Below are positions 44,396-52,359 of a stretch of DNA of 64,000 nt, in pieces. Position 1 is the first letter of the stretch; every line of letters begins with the position of its first letter. The notes beneath the pieces are model-generated. The model was not told where the DNA came from and did not search any database. It was given only the letters and a program-made list of their open reading frames with translations. The stretch lies in the NCBI GenBank assembly GCA_018402545.1, contig JAGYIL010000003.1, forward strand, positions 62,001 through 126,000. The letters are read 5' to 3'. This stretch comes from Saccharospirillum sp. GTDB taxonomy: Bacteria > Pseudomonadota > Gammaproteobacteria > Pseudomonadales > Natronospirillaceae. Made by a program: the position numbers and the translations under genes.

Positions 44396-45286
44396 TCAGC
44401 CGTGCTGTTCCAACATCTTGAAGAAAACGGCTTCCAGCGAGACAAGAGGTTTCACTTCCAGCAACTGACCTTGCTGACCATTCAAGCGTCCCAGCCAATC
44501 GGGAAGATCCTGTTGCGATACTTGCACCTCATACTCACCCGGGCGCACAGCCTGCCCCTCGGTGATGGCATCACTCTGGTATCGCACCAGAAACTCATTG
44601 GCGTGTTCGGCCATCAATTCCCGTGGCGACTGAGTGGTCAGCAGGCGTCCCTGGTTGATAAAACCAAAGCGGTCAGCAATCCGCTCTACGTCGTGCAGTA
44701 CATGAGACGTAAAGAAAATAGCCCCACCCTGCTGCTTGTACTCCTGCAGAATATCGACCACATCCTTGCGCCCTACCGGATCCAACCCCGACAAGGGCTC
44801 ATCCAGCACCAGCAATTTCGGCTCAACCACCATGGCATGTGCTAGCGCAACTCGTTGCACGTTGCCCTTTGAGAGCTGACGAATCTTGCGCTTGGCGTTG
44901 CCGGCAACAGAAAACCGCTCAAGCCAGTACATGCACCACTCAAGCTCGTCTGCCCGCTTGATGCCATACATCCGCAAGGCAGTTTTAAGAATATCCAGTG
45001 GCGTAAACTGCTCATACAACGCAGCGGCCTCCGGTAAATAGGCTACTTTCTGGCGACTGCTGGCCTGGCGTGCGGATTGGCCAAACAAGCGTACCTCACC
45101 CTCATAATCGCTGATGATATCGAGCAGAATCTTAATGGTAGTCGACTTCCCGGCGCCGTTAGGGCCCACGAACCCGAAGACTTCGCCTTCCTCGATGGAA
45201 AAAGATACCGACTTCAGAGCCTCAACCGTCTGGCGACGCTTAGTGAAAGTTTTCGAGACCGATTGAAATTCCAGAATAGCAGTCAT
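44396..45286 (-). CDS. ABC transporter ATPase of the pilin-linked cassette
   Basis: A 296-aa ABC ATPase. Walker A is GPNGAGKST (about residues 40-48), the signature is degenerate (LSKGNVQRV in place of LSGGQ), Walker B is LLVLDEP, and the H-loop is in FFTSHVLHDVE. About 90 extra C-terminal residues follow, as in ABC-2 exporter ATPases. It overlaps the preceding gene by 4 bp (ATGA). By gene neighbourhood it may be the counterpart of Myxococcus PilH, an ABC ATPase needed for pili; this is inference. Confidence 0.9.
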   Translation of the reverse strand: MTAILEFQSVSKTFTKRRQTVEALKSVSFSIEEGEVFGFVGPNGAGKSTTIKILLDIISDYEGEVRLFGQSARQASSRQKVAYLPEAAALYEQFTPLDILKTALRMYGIKRADELEWCMYWLERFSVAGNAKRKIRQLSKGNVQRVALAHAMVVEPKLLVLDEPLSGLDPVGRKDVVDILQEYKQQGGAIFFTSHVLHDVERIADRFGFINQGRLLTTQSPRELMAEHANEFLVRYQSDAITEGQAVRPGEYEVQVSQQDLPDWLGRLNGQQGQLLEVKPLVSLEAVFFKMLEQHG

Positions 45287-46137
45287 TGTGGGCGCTCGAC
45301 TCCTTGAATAGTTAGCTGGCGTAACTTGAATTGACCATCAACAAACTCATAACCAACGCCTAACGGATCTACAGGATAAGCGTCAAGAATGCCTTTATCT
45401 AGCAATGCTTGAGGCACCTTCAACTCCTCGCCATATTCCTGCTCATAAACAGAATGTGCTTCTTGCAGTGTAACCAACCCTTCTAAACGCACTATCCTTT
45501 TCTGTAATGAGTCTACTAAAGATTTGCTAGTAGTCTGCTTTCTTTGCTCTTCAAGATAGGCGATCGCCGCTGACACGTCATTCAGTTCTTCTGTAGCGAT
45601 CATAATTGAAAACCGGCGAATAGAACTCGCGTTGAACTCATCTCGATCAGCAGCTATTTCCAACCCTTTCTGAGCCGCTTGGATGTCTCGCGAAAAAAAG
45701 TATTTATTGAATCCATACAAAAAAGGAGGCAAAAAATCCCAATGACGACACTCTGCCGCTGCCCATAGAGTTTCATTTGCCTCTTGGCTTGCTCCTGCCC
45801 AAGCAAGAATAGCATTCGCCAGATAATAATTATCTTCGTGACAAGCGTTTAAGTCGGTTACAACTTGATGCGCTCTAAGTAGATATCGACCATCTATAGT
45901 CCCGGTTGCAGGATTAATCTCCATTCCAGTTGCGGCCAACCGAATTGTTTCAACGTTCGCTGCCAGATAACGATCTCCCATGTACAGCAGCAACTGCAAA
46001 GGTGCTGTCACTACAACCCGGTCTTCGGGTGGAGCACCACTGGTAGATTCCCATCTAGGGCCATAAATGACAAATAAAGAATATGTTAAAAAAGATCCAA
46101 GAAACAGCCAAAGCGACCATTGACGCATCACTTTCAT
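45283..46137 (-). CDS. Membrane-anchored TPR-like protein in the ABC cassette
   Basis: A 284-aa protein. One N-terminal TM (about residues 7-25) is followed by a periplasmic helical region with repeat-like alanine-rich helices (about 95-230, e.g. ANAILAWAGASQEANETLW and AAQKGLEIAADRDEF). I do not recognise a family. The tight arrangement, 1 bp after the permease and overlapping the ATPase, implies an accessory subunit. Sampled lines are about 40% GC, against about 55% in ampE. A role like Myxococcus PilG is possible but unproven. Confidence 0.75.
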   Translation of the reverse strand: MKVMRQWSLWLFLGSFLTYSLFVIYGPRWESTSGAPPEDRVVVTAPLQLLLYMGDRYLAANVETIRLAATGMEINPATGTIDGRYLLRAHQVVTDLNACHEDNYYLANAILAWAGASQEANETLWAAAECRHWDFLPPFLYGFNKYFFSRDIQAAQKGLEIAADRDEFNASSIRRFSIMIATEELNDVSAAIAYLEEQRKQTTSKSLVDSLQKRIVRLEGLVTLQEAHSVYEQEYGEELKVPQALLDKGILDAYPVDPLGVGYEFVDGQFKLRQLTIQGVERPQ

Positions 46138-46138
46138 A

Positions 46139-46933
46139 TCAATCTAACCTGCGGCGTTTAAAAAGAAACATCGCCAGACTCAGCACCGCGATACAAAAGA
46201 AGGTCACAGAAATTAATCCGATCCCAAAATTAGCGGGCAAGTTGGACACATCATCATATAATGCAATGTGCCGCATATCCAATGCACCAAGATCAGGTAA
46301 AATAATTCGAATCAAGCTTAAGGTGCTACGATACTCTTCCTGCCTTTCTACTATAATAATATTTCCACTCAACAGGTCCAATATAGCTCCGTACGATCGA
46401 GCAACAATGGCAAAACCAATGGTACCTAACAGCACAAATCCTGGTGTCTTGGCTACCACAGCTAGTAAAAGTGACACAGAGGCAATGACCAAAATGTCCA
46501 GCGCGACGAAGCACACTGCCATCCAGTATTCTAGCCCTACCGATACCGGCCTCGATTGGTCATAGGTCGATTCAACAAAAGCAACAAGCACCTGAAGTAA
46601 TAGCGCACCAAATAGCAAGGTTGCCAGAGCAATTGAGAAAACTGCCATAAACCGAGAAATAATGAAACGTGCACGATCAAACGGGTAAGACAGTGAATAA
46701 AGAAAATATCGCCGCTCAAACTCCTTGGAAATAAGATCTTGAAACAAAAGCGCAATCAACAGTGGGAGGCTTAGTTTCAAAAAAGACAATCCAATATCCA
46801 TGGCCACAGTAGCTGGTTGGCGACCACTAAACTGCGAAGCACCGTAGGCCACCCCAATAAGCAATAGATAAAAAGAGATGACAATTACTTGATACCTAGA
46901 ACGCCATGCAATCAATAGACTTAATCGATACAT
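46139..46933 (-). CDS. ABC-2 type transporter permease of the pilin-linked cassette
   Basis: A 264-aa protein with six predicted membrane segments (about residues 14-30, 46-64, 90-115, 130-160, 165-185 and 232-255). The cytoplasmic-side motif SKEFERRYFLYSLSYPFDRARFIISRF sits after the second segment, typical of ABC-2 permeases. It is followed 1 bp later by the TPR-like gene. It is AT-rich (24 of 60 bases G/C in one counted line). Substrate not evident; its position after the short pilins suggests a PilI-like role. Confidence 0.82.
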   Translation of the reverse strand: MYRLSLLIAWRSRYQVIVISFYLLLIGVAYGASQFSGRQPATVAMDIGLSFLKLSLPLLIALLFQDLISKEFERRYFLYSLSYPFDRARFIISRFMAVFSIALATLLFGALLLQVLVAFVESTYDQSRPVSVGLEYWMAVCFVALDILVIASVSLLLAVVAKTPGFVLLGTIGFAIVARSYGAILDLLSGNIIIVERQEEYRSTLSLIRIILPDLGALDMRHIALYDDVSNLPANFGIGLISVTFFCIAVLSLAMFLFKRRRLD

Positions 46934-47019: not shown

Positions 47020-47196
47020 TCACTTCCTGGCAGCCACCAGCAAAACGATTAAATTTTTCGCATCGCTATGTGCTGATGCTTCACGGGCATTCCCCCTATA
47101 TTCTGAGAACGCGGGTATAGCAATCGCAACGAGCACACCAATGATACCTACTACAATCATTAACTCTAACAAAGTAAACCCGCTTTCCTTTGTCAT
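47020..47196 (-). CDS. Short type IV prepilin, second copy (58 aa)
   Basis: A gene too small for ordinary ORF thresholds. It reads MTKESG followed by [13 protein letters not shown], so it has a prepilin peptidase site after G6, phenylalanine +1 and glutamate +5. The mature part is only 52 residues and consists of the N-terminal pilin helix (F24, Y27, R28 conserved), ending ...LLVAARK. There is no globular head. It shares 27 of 52 mature residues with the first short pilin. It lies after a terminator and 86 bp before the ABC permease. Confidence 0.9.
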
Positions 47197-47211
47197 ATTT
47201 CATTCTCTCAT

Positions 47212-47246
47212 AAAAAAAGGGCACGCTTCACTCATGAAACGCACCC
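47212..47246 (-). terminator. Intrinsic terminator between the secreted protein and the second short pilin
   Basis: On the minus strand GGGTGCGTTTCA pairs with TGAAGCGTGCCC (12 pairs, three of them G-T) around a TGAG loop and is followed by seven T. It lies 37 bp after the 153-aa gene and 15 bp before the second pilin start. It would limit transcription of the second pilin and the ABC cassette relative to the first pilin. Confidence 0.85.
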
Positions 47247-47283
47247 CTCTGGAGCTCAAGTGGTTAGACCACTACCATTTAGA

Positions 47284-47745
47284 TTAATTGAAAATCTCAA
47301 TGGCACCCAGGTTATCAATCGTGCAGTTACCTTCCAAAGGAGCTTGCTGCACTGAACCACCAGTGCTTGACGCTGCGTAGCCTGTGTACGACAGCTCAAC
47401 GGTTACGTCTTCACCAGCTGTTGTACAGGTAGAGACGTTCCATACTGGGTCAGCCGGATCGCCGCTGAAATTCTCGCAGGTAATAGTGCGAGTAGCACGC
47501 TGACCAGCTTCATGGCATGTACCAATATCAATGGCGTTATTTACTTCTTCACACTCAAAGGCTGCAACAACATCTGAAGACAAGCTAACTCTTACCTGCT
47601 CACCCAAAAGGACACAGTCTTGTGTAGCACCACCATCCTCTGGCCCGATAGTTTCACCTGTACTGATTTCTATCGCTTCTGCAAAGGCAAAAGAACTGAC
47701 TGCCGAGAAAGTCACGGCAACAACTGTAGCTAGAATTTTGTTCAT
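47284..47745 (-). CDS. Secreted six-cysteine protein, putative detached pilin head (PilA-C-like)
   Basis: A 153-aa protein with a Sec signal peptide (residues 1-22, cut near AFA-EA) and no prepilin motif. The mature part is beta-prone, rich in Thr/Ser/Val, with six cysteines (44, 65, 77, 90, 107, 141), enough for three disulfides. The C-terminal part (ELSYTGYAASSTGGSV ... GNCTIDNLG) resembles the ends of full-length type IV pilins. It starts 24 bp after the first short pilin with GGAG upstream. I infer that it is the separate globular partner of the short pilin, as geopilin domain 2 is in Geobacter. No homology search was possible. Confidence 0.7.
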   Translation of the reverse strand: MNKILATVVAVTFSAVSSFAFAEAIEISTGETIGPEDGGATQDCVLLGEQVRVSLSSDVVAAFECEEVNNAIDIGTCHEAGQRATRTITCENFSGDPADPVWNVSTCTTAGEDVTVELSYTGYAASSTGGSVQQAPLEGNCTIDNLGAIEIFN

Positions 47746-47769
47746 TTCAATTCTCCAAAAATCAGTTTA

Positions 47770-47949
47770 TCAACGCTGGGAAGCTGTCATTACGCTAATG
47801 AAGTTACGTGCATCTGCCTGGGCAGTTGAATCGTTAGCCTTCGCGCGGTAGTTGTTAAACTGAGGAATTGCCACAGCCGCCAGGATGCCGATGATCGCCA
47901 CAACGATCATCAGTTCGATCAGAGTAAAACCTTTTTGAGTTTTCTTCAT
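47770..47949 (-). CDS. Short type IV major prepilin candidate (59 aa)
   Basis: It reads MKKTQKG then [18 protein letters not shown], a textbook prepilin site with glutamate +5 and proline 22. It stops after 52 mature residues (...SVMTASQR), so only the helical spine is present. The first 31 residues are very close to Geobacter PilA-N (F1, E5, P22, F24 and Y27 all present). It occupies the site divergent from pilB where pseudomonads have full-length pilA. A possible promoter on this strand is TTGTGC-16-TACACT (48022-48049). I saw no sigma-54 site with correct spacing. Confidence 0.92.
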
Positions 47950-48565: not shown

Positions 48566-50263
48566 ATGGCAACATCCCTCGGTGGCCTGGCCAAACGGCT
48601 GGTCCGGGACGATCTGATCAACGAAGACGAGGCGCTGACAGCAACTCAGAACTCCGAAAAGGAGAAGAAAAGCCTTGTCGCCTACCTGGTTGAAACAGAT
48701 CTGGTCAGCGCCCAGCAACTGGCCAATGTCGCCTCTGAAGAGTTTGGCACCCCCATTTTCGACCTGACAGCCTTCGACCTCGAAGCCTTGCCACGGGATT
48801 TGATCGCTAACAATCTACTGCAAGCTCACCATGTGATCCCGTTGATCAAGCGTGGGAACCGCCTGTTTATTGGCGTTTCAGACCCGACTAACCTGATCGC
48901 CATAGATGAGATCAAGTTTCACACCGGACTCAGCGTTGAAGCAGTTCTGGTAGAGGAAGACAAGCTCAACCTGGCTCTGGAAGCCCTGCTGGATGACTCC
49001 TCAGACGCCTTTGGTGATTTGGGCGACGACGAAGGCCTAGATGACCTGGACGTTGTTGACACCAAAAAAGATGACGACGCCAATGTGGCGGACGGTGCAG
49101 ATGATGCACCTGTGGTGCGGTTCATTAACCAGATGCTACTGTCAGCCATCAAAAAAGGCGCATCGGACCTTCACTTCGAGCCTTACGAGAAGTCGTATCG
49201 TGTCCGGTTTCGGGTTGACGGTGTATTACAGAACATCGCCAAACCCCCTATTGGCCTTGGCCCCAAGCTATCTGCCCGCTTGAAGATCATGTCGAACCTT
49301 GATATTTCCGAGCGTCGGGTGCCTCAGGATGGCCGGATCAAGCTGAAAATCTCCAAGACCAAGTCCATCGACTTCCGGGTAAACACCCTGCCGACCCTGT
49401 TTGGCGAGAAGATCGTACTTCGTATTCTGGATTCCGCCGCCGCCAAGATGGGGATTGACGCCCTGGGCTATGAGGACGATCAAAAAGATTTGTACATGAC
49501 GGCCTTATCAAAGCCGCAGGGCATGATTCTGGTAACCGGGCCGACCGGGTCAGGTAAAACAGTATCACTCTACACCGGCCTGAATATCCTGAACCAGGAA
49601 GGAACCAACATCTCTACTGCAGAAGACCCGGTAGAGATCAACCTCGATGGCATCAACCAGGTCAACGTAAACAACAAAGTCGGTCTCGACTTCGCAGCCG
49701 CCCTGCGCTCCTTCCTCCGCCAGGATCCGGATATCATCATGGTTGGTGAGATTCGTGACCTGGAAACGGCATCGATTGCGATCAAAGCCGCTCAGACCGG
49801 CCACATGGTGCTATCTACGCTGCACACCAACAGTGCGGCGGAAACCCTGACCCGAATGCTTAACATGGGCGTCCCCTCGTTCAACCTGGCAACCACAGTT
49901 AACTTGATCATCGCTCAGCGCCTTGCCCGCCGGTTATGCAGCAACTGCAAGCAACCGGCTGATCTGCCCGTTGATGTGCTCAAGAAAGAAGGGTTTACGG
50001 ATGAAATGGTCAAAACGTCGACCGTCTACAAACCGGTTGGTTGCGGCAGCTGCAATAAAGGGTATAAAGGGCGAGTAGGGATCTATGAAGTGGTTCGCAT
50101 CACTCCGGCTATTTCCCGTATTATCATGGAAGAAGGCAATTCGATCGATTTAAGCAAAGCCTTCGCTGAAGAAGGCTTTAACAGTTTACGCAAATCAGGG
50201 CTGATTAAGGTTGCCAAGGGCATCACCAGCCTGGAAGAAGTGAACCGCGTAACCACAGACTGA
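48566..50263 (+). CDS. pilB: Type IV pilus assembly ATPase PilB
   Basis: PilB powers pilus extension. At 565 aa it has N-terminal GSPII_E N domains (about 1-150), Walker A GPTGSGKT (near 328), Asp box, Walker B MVGEIRDLETA, and the zinc-binding tetracysteine CSNCKQP ... CGSCNKGYKGR. AGGA lies 9 bases before the ATG. It leads pilB-pilC-pilD-coaE-yacG and is divergent from the short pilins, so it is the likely motor for them. A long acidic linker (about 145-175, DSSDAFGDLGDDEG) lies between the domains. Confidence 0.97.
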   Translation: MATSLGGLAKRLVRDDLINEDEALTATQNSEKEKKSLVAYLVETDLVSAQQLANVASEEFGTPIFDLTAFDLEALPRDLIANNLLQAHHVIPLIKRGNRLFIGVSDPTNLIAIDEIKFHTGLSVEAVLVEEDKLNLALEALLDDSSDAFGDLGDDEGLDDLDVVDTKKDDDANVADGADDAPVVRFINQMLLSAIKKGASDLHFEPYEKSYRVRFRVDGVLQNIAKPPIGLGPKLSARLKIMSNLDISERRVPQDGRIKLKISKTKSIDFRVNTLPTLFGEKIVLRILDSAAAKMGIDALGYEDDQKDLYMTALSKPQGMILVTGPTGSGKTVSLYTGLNILNQEGTNISTAEDPVEINLDGINQVNVNNKVGLDFAAALRSFLRQDPDIIMVGEIRDLETASIAIKAAQTGHMVLSTLHTNSAAETLTRMLNMGVPSFNLATTVNLIIAQRLARRLCSNCKQPADLPVDVLKKEGFTDEMVKTSTVYKPVGCGSCNKGYKGRVGIYEVVRITPAISRIIMEEGNSIDLSKAFAEEGFNSLRKSGLIKVAKGITSLEEVNRVTTD

Positions 50264-50275
50264 GGACGGCACTGA

Positions 50276-51496
50276 ATGGCCACCAAGGCACAGAAGATTT
50301 CGATGTTCACCTACGAAGGCACCGACCGTAATGGCCGGGTGCAAAAAGGTGAGATATCCGGTACCAATCCGGCGCTGATCAAGGCCGATCTTCGCCGAAA
50401 AGGCGTCGTTAAGATCAAGAAACTGGCCAAAAAGCGTGGCGATATACAGCTATTTCAACCCGGCATCAAATCTGCCGACATTGCCCTCTTTACCCGCCAG
50501 ATGGCAACGATGATGAAAGCCGGAGTTCCTCTGATGCGGGCCTTTGAGATCGTAGCGGAAGGCCTGGAAAACAAGAAAATGGCCGAACTGGTCATGCAAA
50601 TGAAGAATAATGTGGCCAGTGGCGGCTCTTTCGGGGCTGCTCTGCGAGAGCACCCCAAGTATTTCGATGATCTATTCTGCTCTCTGGTTGAAGCTGGCGA
50701 ACAGGCCGGTGCTTTAGAAACCATGCTGGACCGGGTAGCGCTCTACCAGGAAAAAGCGGAAAGTCTGCGCAAGAAGGTAAAAAGCGCGATGAAGTACCCT
50801 GCAACTGTACTTACGATTGCAGCAATTGTAACCGTCATTCTTCTACTAAAGGTTGTACCGGTTTTCGCGGAAATGTTTTCTGGCTTTGGTGCAGACTTGC
50901 CCGTCCCTACTCAGGTAGTTATGGATATGTCCACCTGGATCCAGAGTAACGGTATTGTCGCCCTGGGCGTTTTGATCGTGGCTTTCATACTGTTCAAACA
51001 AGGTATGCAGCGATCCAAACCCTTCAAACATGCGGTACAGAGAATGGTTGTGAAACTGCCCATTTTTGGACCTATTCTGTACCAGTCGGCTATGGCCCGT
51101 TACGCTCGAACCTTGTCAACAACCTTTGCTGCAGGTGTCCCTCTGGTCAGTGCACTTGAATCGGCGGCAGGCGCATCCGGCAACATCATTTATGAGACGG
51201 CCATTATGAACGTTCGCCGGGATGTAGAAACCGGCACCGAATTGGCGGTTTCGATGAAAACTCAGGAAACCTTCCCACCAATGCTGATCCAGATGGTCTC
51301 TATTGGTGAACAATCCGGCTCACTGGATGACATGCTGGCTAAAGCAGCTGTTATCTATGAAGAAGAAGTCGACAATCTTGTTGATGGCTTAACGTCCATG
51401 ATGGAACCATTGATTATGTCGTTTCTCGGTATTGTGGTTGGTGGGCTTGTTGTGGCCATGTACCTGCCCATGTTCCAGATGGGTAACGTTATCTGA
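50276..51496 (+). CDS. pilC: Type IV pilus inner-membrane platform protein PilC
   Basis: PilC is the inner-membrane platform that PilB turns to add pilins. At 406 aa it has two GSPII_F domains, three TM segments (about 172-195, 222-240, 378-400) and the motif FTRQMATMMKAGVPLMRA. It starts 12 bp after pilB and overlaps pilD by 1 bp (TGATG). Confidence 0.97.
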   Translation: MATKAQKISMFTYEGTDRNGRVQKGEISGTNPALIKADLRRKGVVKIKKLAKKRGDIQLFQPGIKSADIALFTRQMATMMKAGVPLMRAFEIVAEGLENKKMAELVMQMKNNVASGGSFGAALREHPKYFDDLFCSLVEAGEQAGALETMLDRVALYQEKAESLRKKVKSAMKYPATVLTIAAIVTVILLLKVVPVFAEMFSGFGADLPVPTQVVMDMSTWIQSNGIVALGVLIVAFILFKQGMQRSKPFKHAVQRMVVKLPIFGPILYQSAMARYARTLSTTFAAGVPLVSALESAAGASGNIIYETAIMNVRRDVETGTELAVSMKTQETFPPMLIQMVSIGEQSGSLDDMLAKAAVIYEEEVDNLVDGLTSMMEPLIMSFLGIVVGGLVVAMYLPMFQMGNVI

Positions 51497-52359
51497 TGCC
51501 ATTTTTCGAACTGCTGCAATCCAACACGGTCGCCCTGCTGGCGACCGTTTTAGTATTGGGGTTGCTCGTTGGAAGCTTCCTTAACGTGGTGATCTACCGC
51601 CTACCAGTGATGATGCAAAACGCATGGGCGCGCGAAGCCGCCGAGATGGCGGGTGAGGATGAACCGGAACAGCCTCGATTTGACCTGATCAAGCCAGATT
51701 CCACCTGCCCTTCCTGCAGTCACCAGATACGTGCCTGGGAGAATATCCCCGTTATCAGCTACCTGGTGCTGGGTGGTAAATGCTCGCAGTGTAAAACCCG
51801 GATTTCGCCCCGCTACCCCATTATTGAGCTTACGACAGGTCTGCTTTCGCTGGCGCTGGCCTGGCAGTTTGGGGCTTCCGTTCAAACGGCCGCCTTACTG
51901 GTCCTTTTTTGGGCACTGATCGCCCTGACGATGATTGATGTCGATCACCAGTTGCTGCCAGATTCGATCACCTTGCCATTATTGTGGTTGGGGCTGCTGC
52001 TTAACCTTGGGAACACCTTCGTTCCGTTGGAGCAAGCCGTCATCGGCGCCGTTGCTGGCTATCTGTCGCTGTGGAGCATCTATTGGGCCTTTAAGTTGCT
52101 GACCGGCAAGGAGGGCATGGGCTACGGTGATTTCAAGCTGTTTGCCGCCTTTGGTGCCTGGTTTGGCTGGGGGGCCTTACCACTAATTATTCTGCTGTCT
52201 TCGCTGGTGGGTGCTGTTGTTGGCATTGCTCTCATTGCCTTTATGGGTCGTGAGCGGCAAATCCCCATCCCGTTTGGCCCCTATTTGTGCGGGGCGGCTC
52301 TGGTCTATGTATTCTGGGGCAATGCCATCACCGCCTGGTATCTGGGCAGTTTTACATGA
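51496..52359 (+). CDS. pilD: Prepilin peptidase / N-methyltransferase PilD
   Basis: PilD cuts prepilin leaders after glycine and methylates the new N-terminus. At 287 aa it has the cytoplasmic cysteine domain CPSC ... CSQC, the first catalytic aspartate in MIDVDHQLLPDS, and the GxGD-type site in GMGYGDFKLFAAFG. About eight membrane segments. It can process both short prepilins here. Overlaps coaE by 4 bp. Confidence 0.97.
   Translation: MPFFELLQSNTVALLATVLVLGLLVGSFLNVVIYRLPVMMQNAWAREAAEMAGEDEPEQPRFDLIKPDSTCPSCSHQIRAWENIPVISYLVLGGKCSQCKTRISPRYPIIELTTGLLSLALAWQFGASVQTAALLVLFWALIALTMIDVDHQLLPDSITLPLLWLGLLLNLGNTFVPLEQAVIGAVAGYLSLWSIYWAFKLLTGKEGMGYGDFKLFAAFGAWFGWGALPLIILLSSLVGAVVGIALIAFMGRERQIPIPFGPYLCGAALVYVFWGNAITAWYLGSFT

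Follow-up and report, generated by a model that had tools for sequence, protein, structure and literature searches.

A split type IVa major pilin, built from a headless prepilin (spine 1) and a separately secreted head protein as in Geobacter PilA-N/PilA-C, is probably encoded by a gene cassette of Saccharospirillum sp.; we place the probability of this reading at about 0.8, with a second headless prepilin (spine 2) as the predicted less abundant component. The cassette lies on the minus strand of the window (i.e., the whole stretch of 64,000 nucleotides analyzed), where it is flanked by ampE and the divergent pilBCD genes and has the order spine 1, head, spine 2, permease, PilG-like protein, and ATPase (Table 1). 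The PilG-like protein is labeled after Myxococcus pilGHI, a putative relation. A Shine-Dalgarno-like stretch, read from the sequence, precedes each start of spine 1, the head, and spine 2. The G+C content of the cassette is 0.468, against a mean of 0.560 (standard deviation, 0.031) for 3.55-kb segments of the window, the lowest of which begins at position 45000.

Table 1. Features of the split-pilin locus and the adjoining pilus assembly genes (positions in the window)
Feature	Position	Strand	Description
Spine 1	47770..47949	(-)	Prepilin of 59 aa, 52 mature residues, headless
Head	47284..47745	(-)	Secreted six-cysteine protein of 153 aa, geopilin-domain-2-like (match weak once signal peptides removed)
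Terminator-like hairpin and T run	47212..47249	(-)	Between head and spine 2
Spine 2	47020..47196	(-)	Second headless prepilin, 58 aa, 52 mature residues
ABC-2 type permease	46139..46933	(-)	ABC2_membrane_4 match, E 0.0013, under its cut-off
ABC-accessory protein, PilG-like	45283..46137	(-)	284 aa, without Pfam family
ABC ATPase	44396..45286	(-)	ABC_tran, E 9.2e-30
pilB, pilC, pilD (assembly ATPase, platform protein, prepilin peptidase)	48566..52359	(+)	

Both prepilins carry G-1, F1, and E5, comprise exactly 52 mature residues without a globular domain, and match the Pfam family N_methyl above its cut-off (E values of 1.5e-11 for spine 1 and 6.1e-8 for spine 2). These open reading frames, motifs, and matches agree with the preliminary description of the locus, which had claimed two short prepilins of this length around a Sec-type secreted six-cysteine protein without a prepilin motif. 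The latter was also confirmed from its sequence: the head has a signal-peptide-like start ending in SSFAFA, no prepilin motif, and cysteines at residues 44, 65, 77, 90, 107, and 141 (signal peptides were called by eye and with a custom rule). The pilin-like C-terminal end previously ascribed to the head gained no support from hidden Markov models, the Pilin family (PF00114) being matched neither by the window head nor by any of 70 heads scanned. Searches with the 153-aa head returned zero Pfam matches up to an E value of 1 and just three weak NCBIfam matches, all within its first 25 residues.

Related loci were collected in several ways. Among 22 genomes of the family, the window head matched its own genome only. 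The 284-aa PilG-like protein matched 10 of 369 genomes of the class, and a profile of heads matched 7 of the 369 (G000, G183, G145, G142, G314, G329, and G357). G000, G183, and G145 supply heads to that profile, G142 holds a split locus already known, and the matches in G314, G329, and G357 were weak; the profile missed G193, G047, G257, and G354, though the PilG-like search found them (the G354 contig begins inside the cassette). Named genomes were scanned with a profile of eight PilG-like proteins, and the best 80 of 99 relatives were kept. These loci belong to Pseudomonas, Stutzerimonas, Thauera, Accumulibacter, Rhodocyclales, Thiobacillus, Chitinibacteraceae, and other taxa.

A short spine of 52 to 54 mature residues is present in 71 of these best 80 loci, although the search accepted 45 to 220 residues, and a separate Sec-type secreted head gene lies directly behind it in 69, as in the window. 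The median gap between spine and head is 21 nt under a pairing rule that admitted short gaps only. Nine loci without a spine (L161 to L165, L170, L178, L183, and L190) and two in which the rule paired no head with the spine (L166 and L184) were left out of the pair counts. Both the permease and the PilG-like protein were recognized in all 69 paired loci (best 80 of 99) and the ATPase in 67. In the Thauera loci L112, L117, L137, and L144, the start of the ATPase match is shifted downstream from the PilG-like gene by an additional 0.4 to 1.0 kb relative to most other loci, as if by an insertion. At L110, genes for a PilG-like protein, a permease-like protein, and an ABC ATPase adjoin two full-length pilins, which suggests that the ABC trio also occurs outside split-pilin loci. 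Within the stretches read, pilB accompanies the cassette in 32 of the 69 paired loci from the best 80 of 99 (Pseudomonas, Stutzerimonas, Thiohalophilus, Thiohalomonas, and one metagenome-assembled genome), and in Thauera, Accumulibacter, and other Betaproteobacteria the cassette stands apart from pilBCD.

Because the spine and head have their own starts and stops in 69 other loci (from the best 80 of 99), a frameshift or chance arrangement is very unlikely, and we rejected the possibility that the pair is a frameshifted or fragmentary one-piece pilA. A sequencing frameshift joining the two frames, named beforehand as an observation that would refute a split pilin, is thereby very unlikely. The arrangement is a genuine and widely distributed version of the split pilin. 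In the window and the 69 paired loci, the mature length of spine 1 is 52 residues in 57 of 70 cases, 53 in 11, and 54 in 2. The heads are more variable, with 6 cysteines in 38 of the 69 loci, 4 in 16, 7 in 9, 5 in 3, and 2 in 3 (best 80 of 99). A 35-row alignment of the nearer heads shows full conservation of C44, C65, C77, L47, and G81 and nearly full conservation of C107, C141, and H78.

Sequence comparisons tie both components to the geopilin domains. The best three matches of spine 1 among solved structures were geopilin domain 1 chains (E values of 1.6e-16 to 2.9e-14), followed by a match at 1.1e-10. To exclude the helix shared by all pilins, a profile of spine residues 26 to 52 alone was scored against 72 targets consisting of 2 geopilin stretches and 70 full-length pilins, minor pilins, and pseudopilins, some of them duplicated via overlapping loci. 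The geopilin domain 1 stretches ranked first and second of the 72 (23.3 and 22.2 bits; next, 10.0), a kinship that extends beyond the common N-terminal helix.

For the head, a profile of 70 sequences, signal peptides included, placed geopilin domain 2 (9egp_B) first among 177,635 PDB sequences (E value of 1.4e-7; next, 0.026), with an E value of 0.22 for Geobacter sulfurreducens PilA-C (7tgg_a). An 8-head profile, also including signal peptides, gave geopilin domain 2 an E value of 0.016, and a profile of the 35 nearer heads did not match it in the PDB. When signal peptides were removed, the PDB search lost the match. With a profile of mature heads, the top two of the 72 targets were the geopilin domain 2 stretches (23.2 and 12.2 bits; next, 6.5). 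New alignments of the mature heads, made by MAFFT L-INS-i or G-INS-i, were used for unfiltered searches, with 2,000 shuffles as a control. Against all 70 heads, mature 9egp_B then scored 23.2 and 20.0 bits (E values of 0.00045 and 0.0042), and none of the shuffles scored as high. Against the 47 gamma-type or 23 beta-type heads alone it scored 12.1 to 13.5 bits (E values of 0.45 to 1.4), above all 2,000 shuffles. The partial PilA-C of 7tgg_a scored approximately 12 bits against all heads (0 and 1 of 2,000 shuffles as high), 15.1 bits against beta-type heads (0 of 2,000), and 6.4 to 6.9 bits against gamma-type heads (9 and 12 of 2,000). In the comparison of heads with geopilin domain 2 proposed in the preliminary description, domain 2 ranked at the top when all 70 heads were used, but the match was weak once signal peptides were removed. 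On these scores, distant homology of the heads to geopilin domain 2 is likely, not proven.

These ties bear on the possibility that the short pilins form a bare filament and that the secreted protein is something separate, such as a chaperone, an adhesin, or a filament cap. An early proposal for Geobacter, that nanowires are made solely from the PilA-N-like protein (as recounted in PMC12954529), provides a precedent, but we consider such a filament improbable here: the head adjoins the spine in 69 of the best 80 (of 99) loci, and the heads score best against geopilin domain 2, which is described as a component of the solved Geobacter pilus.

The window's spine-head-spine order recurs in 13 of the 69 paired loci (best 80 of 99). 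The pairing of two spines with one head was not known to be described when first noted, and no description of it, or of heads outside Geobacter, was found in the open literature; it is, however, not a one-off. In 4 of the 69 (L160, L176, L171, and L181; best 80 of 99), a further spine precedes the spine-head pair, and in L160 and L176 it lies nearly 4 kb before the PilG-like gene. In one Stutzerimonas (L103:6920-7900, L127), one spine is followed by two different heads. Spine 2 has a mean identity of 0.69 (range, 0.42 to 0.90) to its own spine 1, which does not support recent duplication as its general origin. The dN/dS ratio, computable for 5 of the 20 spine 2 pairs with more than 60% identity, was approximately 0.15 to 0.40. 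On a tree of PilG-like proteins (70 rows), the two-spine label requires at least nine changes, seven of them forced by well-supported branches, so the two-spine form has been repeatedly gained or lost.

The hairpin after the window head has a folding z score of -3.36 (1 of 200 shuffles as good) and an energy of -20.5 kcal/mol under a custom rule; a terminator pattern scan did not list it. A hairpin with a T run within approximately 250 bases after the head was found in 52 of the 69 paired loci (from the best 80 of 99), compared with 140 of 690 random stretches from the same loci. Some of the 52 sites are far enough downstream to fall inside the permease gene. No spine-head gap (0 of 69) contains such a hairpin, the gap being too short for a fair comparison. 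The hairpin and T run after the head suggest that spine 1 and the head share an abundant transcript and that spine 2 and the ABC genes are reached by a lower level of read-through.

Could spine 2 be the major or an alternative core subunit, with spine 1 and the head acting as a competitor or regulator? All 14 second spines retain E5 and 52 to 54 mature residues, as a core subunit might. Nonetheless, a spine stands immediately before the head in all 69 paired loci (their defining trait) and one behind it in only the 13 noted above (best 80 of 99). First spines are also more conserved than second spines in the 14 two-spine loci (mean identity, 0.80 versus 0.55), and the hairpin precedes spine 2 in the window and in 6 of the 13 other two-spine loci, where the stretch scored is shorter. 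A leading role for spine 2 is accordingly unlikely.

The position of the cassette was evaluated in the family search, which covered 22 genomes including the source genome. Of the remaining 21, the pilB locus was read in 19; G013 gave no match to pilB at the threshold used, and G001 was left out. In 17 of the 19 loci, the start of pilB has a full-length prepilin no more than 1.5 kb away, divergent in 16 and codirectional with pilB in L049. The nearest full-length prepilin in L050 is approximately 4 kb away, past two regulator-like genes, and in L054 the sequence before pilB amounts to 190 bases only. None of the 19 loci contains a prepilin-like open reading frame of fewer than 80 mature residues, and a search for the Pilin family (PF00114) in 16 family relatives gave a match in every one.

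The source genome yielded 16 prepilin matches: the 2 spines, 5 in a minor-pilin operon (two of the genome's prepilins resemble the minor pilins PilV and FimU/FimT), 4 in an MSHA-like operon, 4 in a T2SS-like operon, and 1 lone MshA-like gene, labels that were assigned by reading the sequences. The lone MshA-like prepilin (L061:5463-6035, contig C4; 190 aa) has no recognized pilus genes nearby in the 12 kb read. The only Pilin-family match in this genome (L205:5662-6111, contig C6; PF00114, E value of 4.3e-5) is a lipoprotein-like protein with a start containing ALVACQT. It was rejected as a hidden pilA, having no prepilin site and having a counterpart (L206:5377-5826) in G015, a relative from the same genus that possesses an ordinary pilA. 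Prepilin and Pilin-family searches of the whole assembly, which is 95% complete, found no conventional pilA.

A split pilin in the place of pilA is therefore supported by the full-length pilin at this site in relatives, the lack of another pilA in the 95% complete assembly, the adjacent spine and head in 69 of the best 80 (of 99) loci, and the geopilin ties, of which that of the head is weak. The preliminary claim of a split system at the site divergent from pilBCD, where a full-length pilA is normal, is upheld, and the cassette stands in for a one-piece major pilin. No PilT-family match above the cut-off was obtained in the source assembly, whereas each of the other 17 of the 18 genomes searched had at least one; pilU and yggS were also unmatched, the yggS search having no positive control of its own. 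Since pilT, pilU, and yggS are clustered in G015 (L209) and yggS, beside pilT there, is likewise unmatched, the missing genes probably reflect an assembly gap, a simpler reading than loss of the retraction motor, which was dropped. That an ordinary pilA missed in the same incomplete assembly builds the pili, with the split cassette as an accessory or relic, is very unlikely, because the cassette itself occupies the pilA site and, among six other split-locus genomes, five (G183, G193, G047, G142, and G257) have no Pilin-family match and G145 has one below the cut-off (E value of 0.0099).

We propose that spine 1 would be cut by PilD after G-1 and that its 52-residue helix would join the filament core. 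After export via Sec, the head would fold in the periplasm, forming as many as three disulfides, and dock noncovalently on the spine helix along its outer half, at approximately residues 26 to 52. One spine and one head would then do the work of one conventional pilin, a stoichiometry modeled on Geobacter PilA-N/PilA-C. The abundant transcript would stop at the terminator, leaving spine 2 and the ABC transporter to be expressed by read-through. Spine 2 would probably be a second, scarcer spine, either sharing the head with spine 1 or entering the filament without one. The low G+C content and the occupied pilA site fit replacement of a one-piece pilA by the cassette, probably through horizontal transfer.

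The split design, best known from Geobacter, turns up in many Pseudomonas relatives and Betaproteobacteria. A large gamma- and betaproteobacterial class of split pili with a detachable head coat, using two spines per head or either of two heads per spine (Stutzerimonas L127), is a tentative and rather unlikely extension. If it exists, a cell could vary the coat and the core of one filament separately through expression or gene swapping. The near-fixed spine length and freely diverging heads, sometimes with two spines or two heads, make two-part pilin assembly testable in easily grown Pseudomonadaceae.

Truncated pilins were listed in 2016 for Pseudomonas, Candidatus Accumulibacter, Neisseriaceae, and others, and electron transfer was inferred for strains that have them; in the portion consulted, a head gene was paired with a truncated pilin only for eight Geobacter genomes (PMC5174107). 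These genes are headless prepilins, some from the same genera, and, judged by their description, are probably of the same kind as spine 1. Because 69 of the 71 spine-bearing loci (best 80 of 99) also encode a head, the electron-transfer reading of headless pilins in such bacteria needs revision. The e-pilin of G. sulfurreducens has the aromatics Y32, F51, and Y57 after residue 27 (PMC5566968), and the first spines do not qualify as e-pilins: 62 of 70 have no aromatic after residue 27, and 8 have one (the window plus paired loci from the best 80 of 99). Conductivity is not implied by these spine sequences, as had been cautioned earlier.

The closest known system is that of Geobacter, whose major pilin consists of PilA-N (61 residues) and PilA-C (104) (PMC11046646), present in equal parts in the pili (PMC12954529), in line with the two-protein pilin named in the preliminary description. 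A 2023 review names Geobacter as the case of a two-protein major pilin, stick plus head (PMC10191384). In G. sulfurreducens (GSU1496/GSU1497; 6vk9 and 7tgg), as here, a single operon carries a headless prepilin gene and, behind it, the gene of a secreted head, and geopilin domains 1 and 2 are the best sequence matches for our spine and our head, respectively. The spines here are shorter (52 residues versus 61), and the mature stretches of 9egp_B and 7tgg_a that were compared are without cysteine, whereas six occur in 38 of 69 heads (best 80 of 99). The cassettes here also differ in adjoining an ABC trio, in some cases having an extra spine, and, in Pseudomonadaceae, being divergent from pilBCD. 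A Zetaproteobacterium PilA reported in 2017 likewise has 52 mature residues and is without three of the five aromatics, but a head partner is unmentioned in the section on it (PMC5566968).

Conventional type IVa PilA has in common with the spines the prepilin site, E5, and a position beside pilB, but its head is fused to the helix and matches PF00114, whereas the window spines have no fused head. PilE1 and PilE2 of Streptococcus sanguinis have fused heads. Although these are two very similar ordinary major pilins, their presence as two major pilins per filament is a possible parallel to the two spines described here (PMC11046646).
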